Part shown: positions 4,293 to 64,000 of the stretch, in pieces
How the letters are laid out: each line of letters begins with the position of its first letter
Numbering within the stretch: position 1 is the stretch's first letter
Origin: Bacteroidales bacterium
Lineage (GTDB): Bacteria; Bacteroidota; Bacteroidia; Bacteroidales; P3
NCBI GenBank assembly: GCA_017522105.1
Contig: JAFXAA010000035.1
Coordinates: 17,624-81,623, forward strand
Length of the DNA: 64,000 bases
Direction: 5' to 3'
Made by a program: the position numbers and the translations under genes
The notes under the pieces: generated by a model
What the model was told of the DNA's origin: nothing
The model's database searches: none
Seen by the model: only the letters and a program-made list of their open reading frames with translations

Positions 4293-4375
4293 GCGTTAAT
4301 GTGTTATTGCGTTATCGCGTCAGTGGTTGGCGCGTCCTCTCTAACGCATTGACGCACTAACGCACTAACGCATTC
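4293..4375. repeat. Inverted pair of octamer arrays covering the 3' end of the glycosyltransferase gene
   Basis: Units related to GCGTTAAT / GCGTTATC run from 4293 and the complementary type GCACTAAC / GCATTGAC runs to about 4375, separated by roughly 20 unique bases. The arrays extend into the glycosyltransferase reading frame and encode its last ~23 residues, so the array seems to have replaced or extended the original C terminus. Confidence 0.65.
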
Positions 4376-5476
4376 AATCAGTTTTTCCTTCTCTTTGTTC
4401 CAATCCATATCCTCGCGCGCGGCGGCGAAATCCTCGTCCTGCCACTCCCTCGCCAGCACCCTCTCCACAGCCTCCGCCAACGCACGTGCTCCCGGCTCCG
4501 CCATCACCTCGCCCACACCGTAACGACGCACCACGTGCGCCATCTCCGGCAAATCGCTCACCACCATCGGCACCCCCGCTTGCACAAAAGCACCCACCCT
4601 GTTGGGCAGCGCGTAGTGGTAGCTAAGGCCCTTGTCCTCAAGCATCACCAACCCCACTGCTTGTGGGGAACGCGAGCCCGTCGAGCGAAACCCACAAGAA
4701 GCCTCCAGCGCCGTCATCTCCTCCGGCATCAGCCGACCCGTGAACACCACGCGGTCGGCCCAAGACTTCTCGGCGGCGTAAGCCTTCATCGCCTCCAGCA
4801 AGTCGCCGTCGCCGGCCACCACCAGGCGGCACCCCGGCAGCCACTCCAGCGCGTCGATGGCCCAGTCCACGCCCCTGCCGACATTCACTTTGCCGGCATA
4901 GAGAAGAGTGGCCAGTGGACAGTGGTCAGTGGACAGTATGCTGACGCGACAATGGCTTCCGCCCCTCTGGCCACTGACCACTGACCACTGACCACTACTA
5001 AGGTTCCTCACCACGGTCATCTCAACCCCGTACCTGTCCTTGTAGTAGTCGGCTATCCCCTGGCTCACCGTCAGCAGCGCGTCGCACTTCGGCATCAGCC
5101 ACCGCTCTATCGTCCTCCACACCCACTTCACCACCGGCTTGTCCTGTATCTCAGGCACTTCGTGGAACAGTTCATGGGCGTCCATCACCAGGCGGCAACG
5201 CCCGCGCGCCGCAAGCCAGCACCCCAACAGCGTGTCCGTATCGTTCGCCCATATCACATCGCACTCCATCCCACGCAGACGCCTCCACAGCCGCCAGTTG
5301 AACGCCGCATAGAAGCGCCAGCCGCGCTGCCAGCGCACCGGCAGGTCCGTCCGGCACACCGTCGTCACCTCATACCCCGCCTCGCGCAAAGCTTCGACGT
5401 GGCGCATAACACGCTGGTCGGTAAGCAAATCGTTGCTCACCGCCATCACAATCCGCGTGCTATTGTTGCTGTTCAC
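4304..5476 (-). CDS. Glycosyltransferase family 4-like
   Basis: Predicted GT-B fold sugar transferase for surface polysaccharide or lipid glycosylation. The N-terminal SNDLLTDQRVMRHVEAL motif and the C-terminal block VGLVMLEDKGLSYHYALPNRV are typical of family 4-like enzymes; donor and acceptor cannot be read. I chose a GTG start at 5476 because it keeps the first beta strand (RIVMAVSND); ATG at 5446 or 5560 is possible. Two oddities: about 30 residues between VVRNL and LLYAGKVNVGRG are encoded by an inverted pair of heptamer arrays (4907-4999), and the C terminus is encoded by octamer repeats. The frame stays open through both. Confidence 0.82.
   Translation of the reverse strand: MNSNNSTRIVMAVSNDLLTDQRVMRHVEALREAGYEVTTVCRTDLPVRWQRGWRFYAAFNWRLWRRLRGMECDVIWANDTDTLLGCWLAARGRCRLVMDAHELFHEVPEIQDKPVVKWVWRTIERWLMPKCDALLTVSQGIADYYKDRYGVEMTVVRNLSSGQWSVVSGQRGGSHCRVSILSTDHCPLATLLYAGKVNVGRGVDWAIDALEWLPGCRLVVAGDGDLLEAMKAYAAEKSWADRVVFTGRLMPEEMTALEASCGFRSTGSRSPQAVGLVMLEDKGLSYHYALPNRVGAFVQAGVPMVVSDLPEMAHVVRRYGVGEVMAEPGARALAEAVERVLAREWQDEDFAAAREDMDWNKEKEKLIECVSALVRQCVREDAPTTDAITQ
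4907..4999. repeat. Intragenic inverted pair of GTGG heptamer arrays
   Basis: The left arm is about four units of GTGGNCA (GTGGCCA, GTGGACA, GTGGTCA) and the right arm repeats the complement CCACTGA at least three times, with about 27 unique bases between. The arms can pair into a long hairpin. The whole element is read in frame within the glycosyltransferase gene. Confidence 0.8.
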
Positions 5477-8043: not shown

Positions 8044-8544
8044 ATGTTTATGGATATGAGGGCATCTGTCATAACACGTATCGCGCTGGTTGCGTGCCTG
8101 CTACTTACCGCCTGCGGCGGCAGCAACAAAGCCCGTAGCGGCGCCGACACAGCCACCTTGGCGGCCAAAGCCGAGGCCCTGGCGCCGGAGAAGGGGCAGA
8201 TATGGCAGCTGGTGGCCGTCAGGGGCAAGGCGGTGAGCCGCACCGCAGGCCTCACCACCCTGACATTCAACCCCGAAGCAGGCACCATCAGCGGCAAGAC
8301 GGCCTGCAACACCTACTACGGCAGCTACCGCCTGCGCCTTGAAGCCTCAACGGCCGAGGGCTACCGCTACGCCCTTGCCTTCAGCGGCATAGGCAGCGGC
8401 GACACACGCTGCCCCGAGGCCGACATGAACGCCGAGGCCCGCTACATGGCCCTGCTGCCCAAGGCCGACGCCATGTGCGTCGACGCCTACACTATGACCC
8501 TCTACCAGCGTGGAAAAGAGATACTAAAGTACGAATTGCAATGA
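8044..8544 (+). CDS. META domain (HslJ-like) lipoprotein
   Basis: Lipoprotein of 166 residues with lipobox LTAC (C24). After a linker the sequence has the META-domain order: QIWQLVAVRGK, LTFNPEAGTISGKTACNTYYGSY, GDTRCPEADMNAEARYMALL and a final LTLY-type strand. META proteins such as HslJ are envelope-associated; a precise role is not known. An alternative start is ATG 8056. Its stop overlaps the start of the Nudix gene by four bases, suggesting translational coupling in a three-gene unit with dprA. Confidence 0.8.
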   Translation: MFMDMRASVITRIALVACLLLTACGGSNKARSGADTATLAAKAEALAPEKGQIWQLVAVRGKAVSRTAGLTTLTFNPEAGTISGKTACNTYYGSYRLRLEASTAEGYRYALAFSGIGSGDTRCPEADMNAEARYMALLPKADAMCVDAYTMTLYQRGKEILKYELQ

Positions 8545-9047
8545 AGCTGAGCTATAAATACCACACATGGGACGTGCCGCTGTGGCTGCTGCGGCTGCTG
8601 AAGCACCGCATGCGGTGGGTGCGCGCCGCCGGCGGCATGGTGACGCGCGACGACGGCATGATGCTGCTCATAAAGCGCAACGGTCGCTGGGACCTGCCCA
8701 AGGGCAAGGTGGAGCCGGGCGAGACCCTCCTGCAGGGCGCCTTCCGCGAAGTGGAGGAAGAGACCGGCATTAAAGCGGACTGCGCACAGGGGCATACACT
8801 ACCAACTACCAACTACCCACTACCCACTAAAACCTACCACATCTTCAACCTCTACGGCGGATGGCACCTGAAGCAGACGTCGTGGTTCCCCATGACCACC
8901 GCCGGCAGCCAGGCCGCCAAGCCGCAGGAAGAGGAGGGCATCACCGGCGTGGAGTGGGTGACGCGCGACGAGTGGCACCGCCGCTTGGAGGGCAGCTACG
9001 GCACCCTGCGCACCCTCTCGGAGACCATGAAAAACAGCACACTATGA
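8541..9047 (+). CDS. Nudix hydrolase
   Basis: Hydrolase of nucleoside-diphosphate-linked substrates; the exact substrate cannot be read. The full Nudix box spans residues 55-77: GKVEPGE, then REVEEETGI, with all metal-binding glutamates. Length is 168 residues. The start at 8541 gives an ATGA overlap with the preceding gene, and the stop overlaps dprA in the same way. Shortly after the Nudix box, about 14 residues rich in Thr, Pro, Tyr and Asn are encoded by a short CCAACTA/CCCACTA array, an apparent in-frame insertion in a loop before the strand TYHIFNLYGG. Confidence 0.88.
   Translation: MKLSYKYHTWDVPLWLLRLLKHRMRWVRAAGGMVTRDDGMMLLIKRNGRWDLPKGKVEPGETLLQGAFREVEEETGIKADCAQGHTLPTTNYPLPTKTYHIFNLYGGWHLKQTSWFPMTTAGSQAAKPQEEEGITGVEWVTRDEWHRRLEGSYGTLRTLSETMKNSTL
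8793..8834. repeat. Intragenic heptamer array in the Nudix gene
   Basis: Units CCAACTA, CCAACTA, CCCACTA, CCCACTA follow each other with a degenerate edge. The complement (TAGTGGG) belongs to the same GTGG heptamer family as the arrays in dnaG, cca and the glycosyltransferase gene. No inverted partner is seen. Confidence 0.75.
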
Positions 9048-10260: not shown

Positions 10261-10785
10261 ATGAAGAAACTCCTCATCATCCCCCTGCTGGCGGCCCTGA
10301 CCGCAGCTTGTGGCAGCAAAACCCAGACCTACACAGCAGCCGACGGCAGCGTCAGCGCCACCCTCAACGAGCGCACCGGCGAATGGCACATCACCGGCCC
10401 CGACGGGCGCGAGGTGGTGCCCGACTACGACTCTATGCGCGTAGTCGAAGTGAGCCCCGACGGGCACCCGATGACCATAGTATACCACAGCGGCAACGTG
10501 GAACATTGGCGCCAGTACTACAGCACCATGCAGCTGCGCAGCGAAGGCGACATAGTGGGCGGCAAGCGCGAAGGACACTGGGTGTTCTACCACCCCGACG
10601 GCAAGATACAGGCCGAGGCCACCTACATAGGAGGCCGCGAAGAAGGCCCATACCGCGTCTTCCGCGAAAACGGAGCCCCATACTACTTAGGCCAATACCA
10701 CGACGGCGAGCGCGTGGGAGTGTGGGAGATATACGACGAGCAGGGCCAGCTCGTGGGCCGTCAAGACTACTCCGCAGAGGGATGA
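10261..10785 (+). CDS. MORN-repeat lipoprotein (YwqK-like)
   Basis: Lipoprotein of 174 residues with lipobox TAAC (C17). From about residue 95 it has MORN-type repeats such as GKREGHWVFYHPDGKIQAEA, GREEGPYRVFRENGAPY and GERVGVWEIYDEQGQLV. Such proteins are often annotated as YwqK-family antitoxins, but I see no toxin partner and the signal peptide points to an envelope role instead. Its stop overlaps the cca start by four bases (ATGA). Confidence 0.78.
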   Translation: MKKLLIIPLLAALTAACGSKTQTYTAADGSVSATLNERTGEWHITGPDGREVVPDYDSMRVVEVSPDGHPMTIVYHSGNVEHWRQYYSTMQLRSEGDIVGGKREGHWVFYHPDGKIQAEATYIGGREEGPYRVFRENGAPYYLGQYHDGERVGVWEIYDEQGQLVGRQDYSAEG

Positions 10786-12293
10786 TAGACCTTGGTCTGA
10801 ACCTCTACCGCACCATAGGCCGGGAGGCCGACCGCATGGGCATCGACGCCTACGCCGTGGGAGGCGTGGTGCGCGACCATTTCCTCCAGCGCCCCTGCAC
10901 CGACATAGACATCGTCTGCATAGGCCACAGCGAAGGCGGCGAGGTGCACATAGGCATAGAGCTGGCGCACGCCTCCTCGCGCGCCCTCGGCGGAGGCCAT
11001 GTCTCTGTCTTCAAGACCTTCGGCACCGCCAGTTTCCGCTACACCGAAGACGGACGCGAGTACGAGCTGGAGTTCGTCGGCGCCCGCCGCGAGAGCTACA
11101 GCCACGACAGCCGCAAACCCGTGGTGGAGAACGGCACCCTGGAGGACGACCAGCGACGGCGCGACTTCACCGTCAACGCCCTCGCCGTATGCCTCAACGC
11201 AGACCGCTACGGCGAGCTGATGGACCCCTTCGGCGGCATCAAGGACATGGATGACGGCATCCTGCGCACGCCGCTGGACCCCGACATCACCTTCAGCGAC
11301 GACCCCCTACGCATGATGCGCGCCGTGCGCTTCGCCAGCCAGCTGGGCTTCCGCATAGCCGACGACACCTTCGAGGCCATAGGCCGCAACGCGGAGCGCA
11401 TAGCCATTGTCAGCACAGAACGCATCACCACTGAACTCAACAAGATAATGCTCTCCGCCAACCCCACGCTGGGTCTCAAGCTGATGCAGAAGAGTGGCCT
11501 CATGAAGCTCATCCTGCCCGAGATAGCAGCCCTGCAAGGCGTGGAGACAGTGGACGGACACGGCCATAAGGACATTTTCTTCCACACCATGCAGGTGCTG
11601 GACAATGTATGTCAAATGGAAAGTGAAAAGCGGAAAGCGGAAAGCGATGCCACGCAGACCACTGGAGACAACTCTCCACTATCCACTACCCACTATCCAC
11701 TATATCTCCGCTGGGCCGCCTTGCTGCACGATGTGGGCAAACCCGGAGTCAAACGCTACGATGCACGCCAGGGCTGGACGTTCCACGGCCACGAGGCCCG
11801 CGGGGCGCACATGGTGAAGCGCATCTTCAAGCGCCTGCGCCTGCCCCTGGGCGAAGAGATGCGCTACGTGGAGAAGCTGGTCATGCTGCACATGCGCCCC
11901 ATAGTGCTGGCCGAAGAGGTGGTCACCGACAGCGCTGTGCGCCGCCTCCTCTTCGAGGCTGGCGACGACATCGACGACCTCATGCTCCTCTGCCACGCCG
12001 ACATCACCACGCGCAACCTCGACAAGCAGCGCCGCCACCGCGAGAACTTCGAGCTCGTCAAACGCAAGCTCGTGGAGCTTGAAGAGCGCGACCGCATACG
12101 CAACTTCCAGCCGCCGGTGAGCGGCGAGGACATCATGACCGCCTTCGGCATAGGCCCCTGCCGCGAGATAGGCACCATCAAGGACGCCATAAAGGATGCT
12201 ATACTCGACGGCCAGATACCCAACGAGCGCGAGGCCGCCTGGCAGATGATGCTCCGCCTCGGCGCCGGGTTGGGATTGAAGGTTCATGAATAG
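10782..12293 (+). CDS. cca: CCA-adding/HD-domain tRNA nucleotidyltransferase
   Basis: Polymerase-beta-fold enzyme that builds or repairs the CCA end of tRNAs. Visible are the nucleotidyltransferase signature GGVVRD (residues 27-32) with catalytic D41 and D43 in TDIDIV, the DQRRRDFTVNAL block, the RNA-binding region around RMMRAVRFASQLGF, and an HD domain with LLHDVGKP near residue 312. About 30 residues (roughly 277-307) just before the HD motif are encoded by an inverted pair of short arrays; the frame is kept. Length 503 residues, slightly above the family because of this insert. The start overlaps the MORN lipoprotein stop. Confidence 0.92.
   Translation: MIDLGLNLYRTIGREADRMGIDAYAVGGVVRDHFLQRPCTDIDIVCIGHSEGGEVHIGIELAHASSRALGGGHVSVFKTFGTASFRYTEDGREYELEFVGARRESYSHDSRKPVVENGTLEDDQRRRDFTVNALAVCLNADRYGELMDPFGGIKDMDDGILRTPLDPDITFSDDPLRMMRAVRFASQLGFRIADDTFEAIGRNAERIAIVSTERITTELNKIMLSANPTLGLKLMQKSGLMKLILPEIAALQGVETVDGHGHKDIFFHTMQVLDNVCQMESEKRKAESDATQTTGDNSPLSTTHYPLYLRWAALLHDVGKPGVKRYDARQGWTFHGHEARGAHMVKRIFKRLRLPLGEEMRYVEKLVMLHMRPIVLAEEVVTDSAVRRLLFEAGDDIDDLMLLCHADITTRNLDKQRRHRENFELVKRKLVELEERDRIRNFQPPVSGEDIMTAFGIGPCREIGTIKDAIKDAILDGQIPNEREAAWQMMLRLGAGLGLKVHE
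11604..11703. repeat. Intragenic inverted pair of heptamer arrays in cca
   Basis: The left arm carries GTGAAAA, GCGGAAA, GCGGAAA; the right arm carries TCTCCAC, TATCCAC, TACCCAC, TATCCAC, complements of the GTGGNNA heptamer. About 30 bases of unique sequence lie between. The element is translated in frame. Confidence 0.75.
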
Positions 12294-16176: not shown

Positions 16177-17409
16177 TCACTTGATGTTATACTCCTTCAA
16201 CTTGCGGTACAGGCTGCGCTCCGATATGTGCAGGTCGGCTGCGGCGAGCTTGCGGCTGCCGTGACGCTGTTCCAGGGCGCGGATTATGGCATTGCGTTCA
16301 CGGTCTTCGAGAGCAACGCTCTCATCCTCGATAATCTCCGGCGTAAGGAACTCCTCCTCCTGGTTAGCCATCTGGCCCTGCATGCCCGACATCTGGGTTG
16401 CCGGCAGATATGAGGGGGCAGAGACTTGTGCCTGCTCCACTTGCACCTGTGTTCCTTGAGCGAGGCGTCCCACCATCTGGCGCAGGTCATTGATCTCCTG
16501 CCTCATCTCGCTAATCATCTGACCCATAGAGAGAGCTTTAAGCAGCAGTTCACGGTCTGTGATAGCGTTGCCTGCCGGTGCCGATTTGTCAACGACAGCT
16601 GGCATGCGCTCTGTGGGTATATAAGAAAGGTAGTTCTGCAATATGGCCGGCGTGATGGTGCGTTCGGTCTCCACGACAGCGATCTGTTCGGTGATATTCT
16701 TCAGTTCGCGCACATTGCCGTACCACGGATAGTCCATCATCATGCGCTTGGCGTCCTCGGTCAGCACGATTGGCGGCATGTGGTACTTCTCCGCCACATC
16801 CGAAGAGAACTTGCGGAACAGCAACGGCACGTCGTCCTTGCGCTCGCGCAGCGGCGGCAAGAATATGCTTATCTGGTTCAGGCGGTAGTACAGGTCCTCG
16901 CGGAAACGTCCGTTGCGCACAGCCTCCACAATGTCGATATTGGTGGCAGCCACCACACGCACGTTTATCTTCTGTGCCGTGCTGCTACCCACGGGAATAA
17001 TCTCGCCATTTTCAAGCACACGCAGCAACTTCACCTGCATGGCCAGAGGCAGCTCACCGATTTCGTCGAGGAAGATCGTGCCGCCGTCAGCCTCCTCGAA
17101 ATAGCCCTTGCGGGAGCGGTCGGCGCCCGTGAAAGCCCCTTTCACGTGCCCGAACAGTTCGCTCTCTATGGTTCCTTCCGGTATAGCGCCGCAGTTGACG
17201 GAAATCAGTCCCCTGCCCTGCCGCACATGCTTACGCAGGCTGTTCTCGTGGATTATGCGTGAGAAGACATCCTTGCCCACACCGCTCTCGCCGGTGATGA
17301 GGATGCTCAAATCCGTTGGCGCCACCTGTATGGCCTTGTTCAAAGCCAGCAGCAGACGCGGGTCGTTGCCTATTATGTCGTATCGTTGTTTCAGTGTCTG
17401 TATGTCCAT
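16177..17409 (-). CDS. Sigma-54-dependent transcriptional activator without receiver domain
   Basis: AAA+ activator that remodels RNA polymerase bound to sigma-54. The central domain starts almost at the N terminus: Walker A GESGVGKD (40-47), the sigma-54 contact loop GAFTGAD (91-97), Walker B GGTIFLDEIGE, and the sensor block RFREDLYYRLNQ. A Gln-rich linker of about 80 residues (roughly 290-370) leads to a Fis-type helix-turn-helix ending RKLAAADLHISERSLYRKLKEY. There is no N-terminal sensor or receiver, so regulation must come from outside. It lies three bases after dnaG; in Bacteroidetes such proteins often sit with envelope genes, which is not the case here. Confidence 0.9.
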   Translation of the reverse strand: MDIQTLKQRYDIIGNDPRLLLALNKAIQVAPTDLSILITGESGVGKDVFSRIIHENSLRKHVRQGRGLISVNCGAIPEGTIESELFGHVKGAFTGADRSRKGYFEEADGGTIFLDEIGELPLAMQVKLLRVLENGEIIPVGSSTAQKINVRVVAATNIDIVEAVRNGRFREDLYYRLNQISIFLPPLRERKDDVPLLFRKFSSDVAEKYHMPPIVLTEDAKRMMMDYPWYGNVRELKNITEQIAVVETERTITPAILQNYLSYIPTERMPAVVDKSAPAGNAITDRELLLKALSMGQMISEMRQEINDLRQMVGRLAQGTQVQVEQAQVSAPSYLPATQMSGMQGQMANQEEEFLTPEIIEDESVALEDRERNAIIRALEQRHGSRKLAAADLHISERSLYRKLKEYNIK

Positions 17410-17412
17410 AGT

Positions 17413-19419
17413 CTAATCCAGTCTCCTTGCTATCACCATCCCCAAAGCGGAACCTATCTGCCGCGACAGGTCGGTGTATTGTTTTATCTCCGCCAGCAGC
17501 TGCATCTGCTCCTCGTCCGACGCCCCCATCAAACGCTCGCGCCTTTCGGCGATCATCTGCGCCAGCCTCAAGCTCTTGAACGTGTTGAGGCTGTCTCTCA
17601 CATCCTGCAGCAGGTTGTCTTCCTCTTTAGGCGGATAAATATTCTTTTTCTTCCACGACTCCTCACAGATGCTATAGGTGTCCATCATCACCGTGGCACA
17701 GAAGGTACGGAGCGCATCGTCGGCAGAATCCACGAAACGCGACACCTCCACCCTTCCGGCCATCTCCACCATCAGCGAGCACTGTTCCAGCACACGTTGG
17801 CACAGCGGATGCGAGAAGGAGAGTTTCTCGCCCTCCAACTCACCGACAATAATCTGCGCGACCGTATATGTGGACGTCTGCTGCGTGCCGTTCTCGTCCG
17901 TGAAGTCCTGGCTCAAAGCCTCGTTGCCATAGTTCAGCAGAAGTCTCACCAGATGGCGTTCCACCTCAGGCGGTGCCGTGTCGGTGGTCCGTGGTGAGTG
18001 GTCCGTGGTCAGTTTCTGCCCTGCGCCATCCGCTCCTTGCTCTCCGCTCTCCACTTTCCGCTCTCCACTCTCCACTTTCCGCTCTCCACTATCTTCAGCA
18101 ACCTTCTGGCGGGCCGAGCCTATAGCCCTCGCCACAGCCGTTCCCAAAGCCTCCTCGCTCACCCTCAACATCTGGGAGCACTGCCTTATATACTCGCTGC
18201 GTTCCAGCAGGTCGGCCACCAGCGCTATGCTGCGCGCCGTCTCGCTGACGAGCTCGGCCTTGCGTATGGGGTCGTCCTTCACGCCGTCCAGCAGCACGCG
18301 CGTCTTGTACATGATGAAGTTGTCCTCGTGCGAGGCGAGGAACTCCTGCAGCTGTGTGGAGCCGTACTTCTGGGCGTAGCTGTCAGGGTCTTCGTCGTCG
18401 GGGAAAAGCACCAGCCTGACGTGCATGCCCTCGGCGAAGAGGAGGTCTATGGCGCGGAGCGCCGCCTTGACGCCCGCCTTGTCGCCGTCGTAGAGCACGG
18501 TGACGTTCTGCGTGTAGCGTTTGATGAGCCTTATCTGCTCCACCGTCAGGCTTGTGCCGCAGCTGGCCACGGTGTTCTCCACGCCGCTCTGGTGCATCGA
18601 TATGACGTCCACGTTGCCCTCCACCAGGTAGCACTTGTCGGCCTTGGCGATGGCGGAGCGGGCCTGGTAGAGGCCGTAGAGGATGCGGCTCTTGTTGTAT
18701 ATGTCCGAGTCGGGCGAGTTGACGTATTTGGCGGCCTGCTTCTCGCTGGTGAGCACGCGGCCGCTGAAGCCCAGCACACGGCCGCTGATGCTGTAGATGG
18801 GGAACATCACGCGGCCGCGGAAACGGTCGTACTGCTTGCCGGTGTCCTCCTTGACGATGGTGAGGCCCGTCTTCTCCAGCACCTGCAGGCTGTAGCCGTT
18901 CTTCAGCGCGTGGTCGGTGAAGTTGCTCCACTCGTCGAGGCAGTAGCCCAGCCCGAAGCGCTTTATCACCTCGTCGCTGAGGCCGCGCCCGTGGAAGTAG
19001 CTCAGGCCCACGGCACGTCCCATCTCGTCGTTGTAGAGCAGGTCGGCGAAATACTTCTGCGCAAACTCGCTCACGTGGAACAGGCCGTCCCTTTCCGTCT
19101 GCCGCTGCTTCTCCTCCTCGGTCTGCTCCTCCTCCTTAATCTCTATGTGGTACTTGTCGGCCAGCCAGCGCAGCGCCTCGGGGTAGGTGTAGTGCTCATG
19201 CTTCATGAGGAACTTCACCACATCGCCCGCCTCACCGCAGCCGAAACACTTGAAGATGCCCTTCGACGGCGACACATAGAACGACGGCGTCTTCTCGTTG
19301 TGGAACGGGCAGCAGCCTATATGGTTGGCGCCACGCTTCTTGAGCGACACAAAATCGCCTATCACCTCCTCGATGCGGGCGGCGTCCATAATGCGCTGTA
19401 TGGTCTCCTGGTCAATCAT
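17413..19419 (-). CDS. dnaG: DNA primase (DnaG)
   Basis: Synthesises RNA primers for replication. The CHC2 zinc-binding domain has C37, H40, C58 and C61; the TOPRIM region has LVEGNVDVISMHQSG and VTVLYDGDKAGVKAA; the C-terminal part should bind the DnaB helicase. Length 668 residues. Between the polymerase core and the helicase-binding domain (about residues 439-479) the protein has Ser-Gly-Glu-Arg-Lys-Val-Glu repeats and a Thr/Asp/Ser segment, encoded by two heptamer arrays. A near-perfect promoter ends only eight bases before the start codon, so the mRNA may be leaderless. First gene of a dnaG-regulator-aroA-miaA operon. Confidence 0.93.
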   Translation of the reverse strand: MIDQETIQRIMDAARIEEVIGDFVSLKKRGANHIGCCPFHNEKTPSFYVSPSKGIFKCFGCGEAGDVVKFLMKHEHYTYPEALRWLADKYHIEIKEEEQTEEEKQRQTERDGLFHVSEFAQKYFADLLYNDEMGRAVGLSYFHGRGLSDEVIKRFGLGYCLDEWSNFTDHALKNGYSLQVLEKTGLTIVKEDTGKQYDRFRGRVMFPIYSISGRVLGFSGRVLTSEKQAAKYVNSPDSDIYNKSRILYGLYQARSAIAKADKCYLVEGNVDVISMHQSGVENTVASCGTSLTVEQIRLIKRYTQNVTVLYDGDKAGVKAALRAIDLLFAEGMHVRLVLFPDDEDPDSYAQKYGSTQLQEFLASHEDNFIMYKTRVLLDGVKDDPIRKAELVSETARSIALVADLLERSEYIRQCSQMLRVSEEALGTAVARAIGSARQKVAEDSGERKVESGERKVESGEQGADGAGQKLTTDHSPRTTDTAPPEVERHLVRLLLNYGNEALSQDFTDENGTQQTSTYTVAQIIVGELEGEKLSFSHPLCQRVLEQCSLMVEMAGRVEVSRFVDSADDALRTFCATVMMDTYSICEESWKKKNIYPPKEEDNLLQDVRDSLNTFKSLRLAQMIAERRERLMGASDEEQMQLLAEIKQYTDLSRQIGSALGMVIARRLD
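17983..18104. repeat. Intragenic paired heptamer arrays in dnaG
   Basis: On the coding strand one array has at least six units alternating GTGGAGA and GCGGAAA (complement at about 18043-18104). After some 35 unique bases a second array of inverted polarity follows (GTGGTCC/GTGGTGA units on the plus strand from 17986). The reading frame is preserved because the total length is a multiple of three. Confidence 0.8.
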
Positions 19420-22029: not shown

Positions 22030-22129
22030 CCCTACGGCATTTCTTCAGTAGTTCTTCAGTAGTTCTTCAGTCAAACACTGAAGAACTACTGAAGAACTAC
22101 TGAAGAACTACTGAAGAAATGCCGTAGGG
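22030..22129. repeat. Hairpin element built of CTTCAGTAGTT 11-mers, copy 1
   Basis: Outer arms CCCTACGGCAT and ATGCCGTAGGG enclose CTTCAGTAGTT-type units on the left (three CTTCAG cores) and their complements on the right (four CTGAAG cores), with a CAAAC loop. The 100-base element can fold into one long hairpin. A second copy is at 43481-43560 and a fragment near 50301-50350. Confidence 0.85.
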
Positions 22130-23983: not shown

Positions 23984-24018
23984 AGTTTTAAGTTTTGAGT
24001 TTTGAGTTATGAGTTATG
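23984..24018. repeat. GTTTTGA/GTTATGA heptamer array overlapping the pflX-like start
   Basis: Units GTTTTAA, GTTTTGA, GTTTTGA, GTTATGA, GTTATGA run into the start codon of the following gene; the last units provide the ATG. Confidence 0.6.
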
Positions 24019-24948
24019 AGGACACTGGACGCTGCACGCTGTGTCCGCGGCGGTGCGGAGTGCGAAGGGATGCGGCACAGGGCTTCTGCGGCGCCACGGA
24101 GGCCTTGGAGGTGGCCACGGTGTGCGTGCACCGCGGCGAGGAGCCTCCGCTGAACCCCATCGTCAACGTCTTCTTCGCCCACTGCAACCTGCAGTGCATC
24201 TACTGCCAGAACTGGCAGATCAGCGGTGGAGAGTGGAGAGCGGAAAGTGGAGAGTGGAAAGTGGAAAGTGGAAAGCATAGAGTCGCTGGCGGAGCGCATC
24301 TGCCGGTTGTTCTCCTCGCTCGACTCGCCAGGCACCACACCCATGCTGGGGCTCGTCACTGCCGCCCACTATGCCGACCGCATGGCGGCGCTTGTGGAGG
24401 AGCTGCACCGGCGCGGCTGCACGCCCACGGTGGTGTACAACAGCGGCGGCTACGAGAGCGTGGAGACCCTGCGGAGCCTCGAAGGGCTGGTGGACGTCTA
24501 CCTGCCCGACCTCAAGTACATGGACGGCGCCCTTGCGGCCCGCTACAGCCACGCGGCGGACTACCCCGAGGTGGCGGCGGCGGCGCTGAAGGAAATGAAG
24601 AGGCAGGTGGGCGGGGGCCTGATGGCGGACGACGGGGGACGCGCCTACCGCGGCATGATAGTGCGCCACCTGGTGCTGCCGGGGGCCACGGACAACTCGC
24701 TGAAGTGCCTCGAATGGCTGGCGGACCACTTCAACCCCTTCACGCTGCACCTCTCGCTCATGGCGCAGTACTTCCCGCCGCGCCAGGGCCTTCCGGCTCC
24801 GCTGGACCGCACGCTGACGGCGGAGGAATACGCCACGGTGACCGACCGCGCCGCCGCGCTGGGCTTCACCGAAGGATGGGTGCAGGAGCTGGAGGCTCGC
24901 GACAACTACCGCCCGGACTTTGACCGCAAGGACAACCCCTTTGAATAG
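24009..24948 (+). pseudogene. PflX-like radical SAM protein, split by a heptamer array (possible phase-variable gene)
   Basis: The N-terminal part has the PflX-type zinc/cysteine start CTLCPRRCGV, GEEPPLNPIVNVFFAHCNLQC and the radical SAM motif CNLQCIYC. The C-terminal part (SIESLAERICRLFS to DNPFE) is in another frame. Between them seven heptamers (24226-24274) follow directly after CQNWQIS. The two frames differ by one base; deletion of a single heptamer, or gain of two, would give one continuous protein of about 310 residues. As read, the gene would produce a truncated product. This could be a phase-variable switch, a fixed pseudogene, or an assembly error in the repeat. The family is related to pyruvate formate-lyase activating enzymes; its substrate is unknown. 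Confidence 0.8.
24226..24274. repeat. Seven-copy heptamer array inside the pflX-like gene
   Basis: Exact units in order: GTGGAGA, GTGGAGA, GCGGAAA, GTGGAGA, GTGGAAA, GTGGAAA, GTGGAAA. The last three are identical and adjacent, the best substrate for slipped-strand mispairing. The unit is not a multiple of three, so copy-number change shifts the frame. Confidence 0.9.
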
Positions 24949-63033: not shown

Positions 63034-63127
63034 CTCAACCACATATCACAGCGTCATCATCCCGTAACCCCCTGTCATATAGCCATTACCAAACACGCCT
63101 ACCCATCCGTACTCCATTTCTACTGCC

Positions 63128-63257
63128 TAAACACCCTCTAAACGTCCACTAAACGGCTACTAAACGGCTACAAGACGGCCACAAGAGAGCCACACAACAG
63201 CACAAGACCACCACTAAACGGCTACTAAACGGCTACAAGACGGCTACAAGACAGCCA
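63128..63257. repeat. 11-mer direct repeat array (CTAAACGGCTA family)
   Basis: Units such as CTACTAAACGG, CTACAAGACGG and CCACAAGAGAG follow each other in two blocks separated by about 30 bases of degenerate units; the pattern returns near 63588-63612. Units are too short and have no spacers of uniform length, so it is not a CRISPR array. Confidence 0.7.
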
Positions 63258-63902: not shown

Positions 63903-63910
63903 AAAAATAT

Positions 63911-64000
<90 letters not shown>

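Follow-up and report, generated by a model that had tools for sequence, protein, structure and literature searches.

A frame-breaking heptamer array in a radical SAM gene of a Bacteroidales bacterium, best read as one copy of a genus-wide repeat class

The window, a stretch of 64,000 nucleotides from a Bacteroidales bacterium, belongs to an assembly of 2.28 Mb in 38 contigs which is 92% complete (this genome is termed G000). The eleven named records closest to it (L039-L049) come from uncultured Bacteroidales or Bacteroidetes and, where an origin is stated, from sheep colon, yak rumen or goat rumen; the RUG isolates among them are presumably rumen genomes as well. The remaining 69 loci kept beside these records are further off and mostly from Clostridia. 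The other genomes named below are G023, a sister species of G000, and the congeners G008, G019, G012, G056, G002, G036, G063 and G011. Genes in the G000 stretches were called with our own simple coding model rather than with a published caller.

Seven heptamers of the type GTGGARA/GCGGAAA were found on the plus strand at 24226..24274, as the original prediction had described, in the order GTGGAGA, GTGGAGA, GCGGAAA, GTGGAGA, GTGGAAA, GTGGAAA, GTGGAAA; TRF places this array at 24226-24275. It is short and imperfect, with three unit types and a longest identical run of three units. The array comes after the cluster motif CNLQCIYCQNWQIS (CX3CX2C) of a radical SAM gene and occupies the variable linker between this motif and the next helix, and the reading frame changes across it. 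The upstream half of the gene (24009..24224, plus strand), with CX3CX2C at CNLQCIYC, reads into the array in the frame of 24009, and has 54 tblastn matches in the fetched loci of relatives. The downstream half (24275..24948, plus strand) lies in the other frame, that of 24226, spans SIESLAERI to a stop ending at 24948 and is under purifying selection. The placing of the two halves in these two frames, also part of the original prediction, was upheld by tblastn of the called G023 sister gene against the window, which matched in two pieces, 24105-24233 and 24256-24945, that differ in frame, and the arithmetic of the prediction, by which the loss of one unit or the gain of two would join the halves, is correct. 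A 304-aa ORF in the upstream frame and a 240-aa ORF in the downstream frame both cross the array without a stop, the former being out of register past it. As a hairpin the focal array folds no better than its shuffles (z -0.5) and is without a clear C-rich partner, and no match to its flank was found in the viral contigs scanned. A second heptamer array (AGTTTTG/AGTTATG, 23984..24020, plus strand) spans the start codon of the radical SAM gene, which it supplies, and G023 and G008 have a similar array at this position.

The gene product has the CX3CX2C motif of a radical SAM enzyme, and cysteines C56, C60 and C63 are invariant in an alignment of 45 relatives. The profile TIGR04337 (AmmeMemoRadiSam radical SAM enzyme) matched the upstream half with an E value of 2.9e-05 and 23.1 bits against a cut-off of 220, and two intact congeners with 22.1 and 21.5 bits. 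An AmmeMemoRadiSam identity is not supported, as these intact congeners are far under the curated cut-off. The Pfam radical SAM domain (gathering score 29.5) scored 26.6 and 23.4 bits in two intact congeners and 43.0 in a distant homologue, and a Pfam scan of each half of the focal gene gave no match. As the NCBIfam and Pfam scores of the two intact congeners lie under the curated cut-offs, the gene is named a radical SAM enzyme only. The family profile matches pyruvate formate-lyase activating enzyme (E 3.6e-05), and the alignment to this enzyme places the linker region just past the cluster motif; what comes after the linker we take to be a helix.

The gene was matched in 65 of 70 same-genus genomes, four of the five without a match being only 64-79% complete, and in view of these five it is possibly dispensable. 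Comparison of the frame in related genomes does not favour the on/off switch for which the original prediction put the array forward as a candidate: of the 66 genomes examined (65 relatives and G000), only G000 itself has the two halves in different frames. Arrays with a score of at least 9 were found at the linker in G000, G019, G012, G056, G002 and, weakly, G036, and all five of the other array-bearing genomes are in frame. A C-rich second array stands ~30-36 bp on from the linker array in G019, G012, G056 and G002. When gene calls from 40 kb of G023 were compared with the window, the focal radical SAM gene was the only one of 36 testable genes to be frame-changed; the same comparison with 40 kb of G008 gave none of 34, the radical SAM gene, which is split between two loci there, being left out. 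A separate in-frame stop was observed in G011 (L223), in the helix region past the linker of the radical SAM gene.

The identity of G000 to G023 is 0.57 in the first 75 bp past the array and 0.96 in the remainder. For the same 75-bp patch, identities to G000 are 0.71 for G019, 0.69 for G012 and 0.63 for both G056 and G063, and a second alignment gave 0.52 for G023, 0.69 for G019 and 0.66 for G012. The linker patch of G000 is out of frame, differs sharply from that of the sister species and is nearer to those of array-bearing relatives, and on these identities it may have been exchanged. Fast divergence of the patch is possible too, because elsewhere in the gene G019 and G012 are more identical to G000 (0.82 and 0.79, respectively). 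None of the congeners compared was similar enough to be the donor, G019 being the best. For the whole downstream half, dN/dS between G000 and G023 is 0.28, with nine other pairs at 0.17-0.27; minus the patch it falls to 0.115, 6 of the differences changing an amino acid, and the other nine pairs are at 0.135-0.234. The dN to G008 is 0.097 for G000 and 0.090 for G023, so that G000 evolves hardly faster. The upstream half has a pN/pS of 0.15 between G000 and G023. Both halves of the focal gene thus look conserved by selection, and the break would therefore be recent, reversible or an assembly miscount.

Tandem arrays were scanned at periods of 4 to 30, with period-7 arrays counted at a score of 14 or more. 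Periods 7 and 11 were prominent, as were multiples of these, and a minor peak was seen at 8. A total of 49 period-7 and 51 period-11 arrays was found in 448 kb of G000, made up of the window and a first set of 20 stretches (L119-L138) selected mostly around GTGGARA matches, and 388 kb from 14 congeners held 59 and 35, respectively. Other families of the order (~248 kb, two masked loci being left out) yielded 2 period-7 arrays and none of period 11; such arrays are plentiful within the genus and scarce in the families sampled outside it. The heptamer arrays are beyond chance, since shuffling of the 448 kb within 60-bp blocks left no period-7 array of score 14 or more, compared with the 49 real ones. 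A second, partly chosen, set of 20 stretches brought the G000 sequence to 846 kb, in which 37 of 76 period-7 arrays are coding, 32 intergenic and 7 at an edge, in a sampling biased to GTGGARA; under the same bias, 29 of the 49 arrays in the first set and window lie in genes. Because the stretches were chosen largely around matches to this unit, both the density of arrays and the fraction found in genes are inflated. The window itself was not hand-picked and has 9 period-7 arrays, 7 of them in genes. Of the arrays in the 846 kb that fall in size bins, 37 of 75 have 4 to under 5 units.

Three consecutive GTGGARA units were found in 3 of 148 genomes across the phylum, G000 included. A search of relatives for the pattern AGTNNNN was discarded as non-specific, with 82 of 118 genomes matching and a reversed control equal or higher in many. 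The G-quadruplex was set aside as a general function: the focal units have at most GG, as do most listed arrays judged by eye, and a few listed arrays do show GGG or GGGG by the same inspection.

The frame was assessed as that preferred by the coding model on each flank of an array, using longer flanks and a lower threshold than in an earlier, stricter test. The two flanks agree in frame at 27 of the 37 intragenic arrays and disagree at one, the focal array, and 9 were too weak to call, meaning that 27 of the 28 arrays with a clear verdict keep the frame. Flank frames differ at five intergenic arrays too, which is what the gap between neighbouring same-strand genes would give. The stricter test had returned 13 arrays with the same frame, one shift (an intergenic array) and 34 ambiguous cases, the focal array included. 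Stops on both strands are present in 18 of 32 intergenic arrays compared with 1 of 37 coding arrays. Identity at lag 21 exceeds that at lag 7 in coding arrays, both in G000 (0.878 vs. 0.846, 8 arrays) and in relatives (0.896 vs. 0.869, 4 arrays), and the trend is reversed in intergenic arrays; as a sign of frame selection this measure was set aside, pointing in the expected direction weakly.

The first sample contained 21 array-bearing genes besides the focal one, of which 20 were scanned with NCBIfam and 18 with Pfam. Hosts identified above curated cut-offs are DnaG, PurL, RimO, MtaB, RsmH and RibD. Pfam domains or weaker matches added a CCA tRNA nucleotidyltransferase, an rRNA methyltransferase-like protein, an NrnA-like DHH protein, a beta-galactosidase, ABC transporters, glycosyltransferases, a NUDIX hydrolase, a PNGase F-like protein, an M23 peptidase and others, and the host gene in L121 had no family in either NCBIfam or Pfam. 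The arrays are in frame in unrelated, mostly housekeeping enzymes, a host set which would be unlike the usual genes of contingency loci, and the loops that carry them probably lie on the protein surface.

Several of these genes are in the window. A convergent pair of AGTGGNC arrays (4907..4996, minus strand) is in frame in a glycosyltransferase gene (4304-5446), has GCTGACGC in its spacer and forms a hairpin (z -8.7). An ACTACCA/ACTACCC array (8798..8829, plus strand) is in frame in the NUDIX hydrolase gene (8541-9047), a convergent pair (11620..11703, plus strand) in the CCA tRNA nucleotidyltransferase gene (10782-12293), and further heptamer arrays (17976..18090, minus strand) in the dnaG primase gene (17413-19419). 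At the same loop the array unit changes between species. The glycosyltransferase and NUDIX loops carry heptamer-like arrays in G000, G023 and G008 with differing units, and the dnaG loop has arrays in G000 and, weaker, in G008. The array pair and spacer of the CCA enzyme are aligned against a 72-bp gap in G023 and G008. In eight congeners, the PurL, MtaB and RsmH loops show other heptamer-type peptides (VESGEWR, VENGKRK, TTHYPLPT) or none. A frame break was also observed in the purL gene of G019 (L166, ~3699), with query residues 764-776 unmatched; it is possibly an assembly error, and no array was found near it.

Some of the arrays are paired, with a G-rich array followed by a spacer of mostly 17-34 bp and a C-rich array. 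Inverted neighbours within 35 bp are in purine-then-pyrimidine order in 16 cases and in the opposite order in none (binomial p 3e-5). Within 50 bp, G000 has 10 inverted neighbours in purine-first order, one in reverse order and four facing the same way, and the congeners have nine, none and four, respectively. The arms of a pair are often, but not always, alike: in a comparison with all arms, the own partner matched best in 3 of 10 pairs of G000 and in 6 of 9 pairs of the congeners. Folding of further pairs gave z values of -6.6 (radical SAM gene of G019), -3.7 (purL) and -3.2 (cca), with no strong fold for the L125 pair (z -0.5). The sequence GGCTGACGC or a close variant lies directly 3' of the G-rich array in 7 of the 102 arrays listed, namely at 4907-4996 in the window, 16629-16727 and 17135-17224 in L124, 8113-8193 in L125, 3613-3699 in L132, 5679-5720 in L134 and 11595-11632 in L207. 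The two L124 pairs were seen to have a common spacer in inverted orientation.

According to the available text of Rehm et al. (2015; PMC4692102), many bacterial genomes have an excess of heptameric repeats, which as of that year were without a dedicated detailed literature. The GGGAATC and GGGGAYT repeats of Xanthomonas and Nostoc described there resemble the G000 arrays in being dispersed, in having about four units and in varying in length among close species, and convergent opposite-strand pairs, frequent in Xanthomonas (70 and 75 cases in two genomes), occur here also. However, the available text of that report gives an intergenic share of 89% and 93% for those repeats, whereas 37 of 76 arrays in the GTGGARA-biased G000 sample are intragenic. 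Their unit is of one G-rich type with runs of three or four G, while here it varies within the genome and between species and the focal units do not go beyond GG. The TAACTGA heptamers reported from Beggiatoaceae, cyanobacteria and some Bacteroidetes (MacGregor, 2015; PMC4679880) are mostly just upstream of start codons in one Beggiatoaceae genome, and the second array of the focal gene covers a start codon. However, as far as the accessible part of that paper goes, these sets have another unit and are mostly intergenic, the 24 that overlap genes in that genome being mostly at gene ends. Heptamers in the hmw1A promoter are another heptamer case (PMC8262952, available portion).

Rickettsia palindromic elements and intragenic REPs are, as here, in frame in unrelated genes (PMC10969869, PMC3733652). 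However, in the portions of these two sources that were available, they carry family sequences of their own, while the arms here are heptamer arrays of a unit which changes by site and species, and a GGCTGACGC-like core is common to only some spacers. Among the literature matches listed there was none on heptamer arrays inside Bacteroidales genes, and a literature search with four array peptide strings returned no paper.

The focal array is best read as a member of a heptamer array class that occurs across the genus, in permissive loops of many genes and in intergenic gaps. Such arrays would be rewritten by slippage, unequal recombination or template switching, with selection removing frame-breaking outcomes in genes that matter. 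As like arrays sit in frame in other genes, the break looks more like a mishap of a common repeat than like a dedicated switch, and it is probably a recent chance event in a dispensable enzyme gene. Against this, the sole out-of-frame array could be the one with a special role, and a low dN/dS also fits a gene which is often ON.

An artefact of assembly or consensus is rather unlikely, although several observations would suit it. The organism would then possess an in-frame copy number, and the break would stem from a miscount of the array, or a merging of strains, in the metagenome assembly. In each of the 65 relatives examined the two halves share a frame, both halves of the focal gene look functional (the downstream half strongly so minus the patch), and array-free frame breaks are known in such assemblies, that in the purL gene of G019 being an example. 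However, 49 bp of non-identical units should fit an ordinary short read, and no other break was seen among the 36 testable window genes or the other intragenic arrays with a verdict.

Phase-variable heptanucleotide loci usually have a long, homogeneous repeat tract, and with seven units of three types the focal array is not of this kind. True phase variation, whereby slipped-strand changes in unit number would turn the radical SAM enzyme on in some cells and off in others, is improbable, and because the array class keeps the frame it is not the leading explanation. The part of the original prediction which stands is that the interruption is real in the assembly and located at the heptamer array; the dedicated switch does not, given the 27 of 28 intragenic arrays in frame. 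A unit of seven bases does not divide by three, the frame is broken in G000 and continuous in the 65 relatives, purifying selection persists and the gene is possibly dispensable, all of which would agree with switching, and the neuO gene shows that intragenic heptamer arrays can switch (PMC13001214, available text). In neuO, as in the focal gene, the array lies within the coding sequence and its copy number sets the frame. However, the same text describes 3-53 repeats at the 5' end of a capsule-modifying gene, which is out of frame in 42 of 64 genomes, whereas here, on data which are between species, the arrays are short and imperfect, and most of them are internal and keep the frame. Moreover, the class occurs in mostly housekeeping genes, all five other genomes with an array at the site are in frame, and the product is an enzyme and no surface antigen. 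The dominance of in-frame arrays across genes and species, which was measured between species and not within one, speaks against free switching. It is highly improbable that the broken frame is used as it is, with ribosomal frameshifting in the array or a GTG start at 24226 giving a full-length or split protein: the two ORFs do run through the array without a stop, but none of the 65 relatives is built that way, the longer ORF is out of register past the array, a +1 shift would be needed and, to our knowledge, the array holds no known slippery site.

With the focal break taken as a chance event in a widespread repeat class, a broader process can be put forward tentatively, as something that may well not hold. 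Arrays and pairs, some with a GGCTGACGC-like core, would be gained as units in coding sequences throughout the genome and rewritten between sister species, those in frame persisting as new loops in core enzymes, DnaG, the CCA enzyme and PurL among them, and the broken radical SAM gene would be a visible failure of this process. In-frame arrays in core enzymes with a unit that changed between sister species offer a natural test of how protein loops are gained, and also of what generates the 7-bp and 11-bp repeats. The Xanthomonas/Nostoc and TAACTGA families are mostly intergenic in the available text of the two reports (PMC4692102, PMC4679880), while here arrays are in frame in core enzymes. 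An intragenic heptamer array alone should not be taken as evidence for a phase switch.

The 11-bp arrays were observed to form near-perfect hairpins, as at 22041-22118 in the window (z -16.2), where Rfam at gathering thresholds gave no family. A total of 24 such sites was found in the 846 kb of G000, mostly with three to four units and mostly with a 5-bp loop. For 23 of the 24, a called gene could be assigned on either side, and in 20 of the 23 these genes are divergent; among the 280 intergenic gaps longer than 60 bp, 56 have divergent flanking genes (p 5e-13). The hairpin is kept between species but its 11-bp unit is not: in G008, the gap between the same two genes has another unit (L141, 17827-17911). 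A long imperfect 11-bp array (CTAAACGGCTA-like) in direct orientation is situated at 63127-63252 of the window, near a 5S rRNA match on the minus strand (63908-64000) which is cut by the window end.
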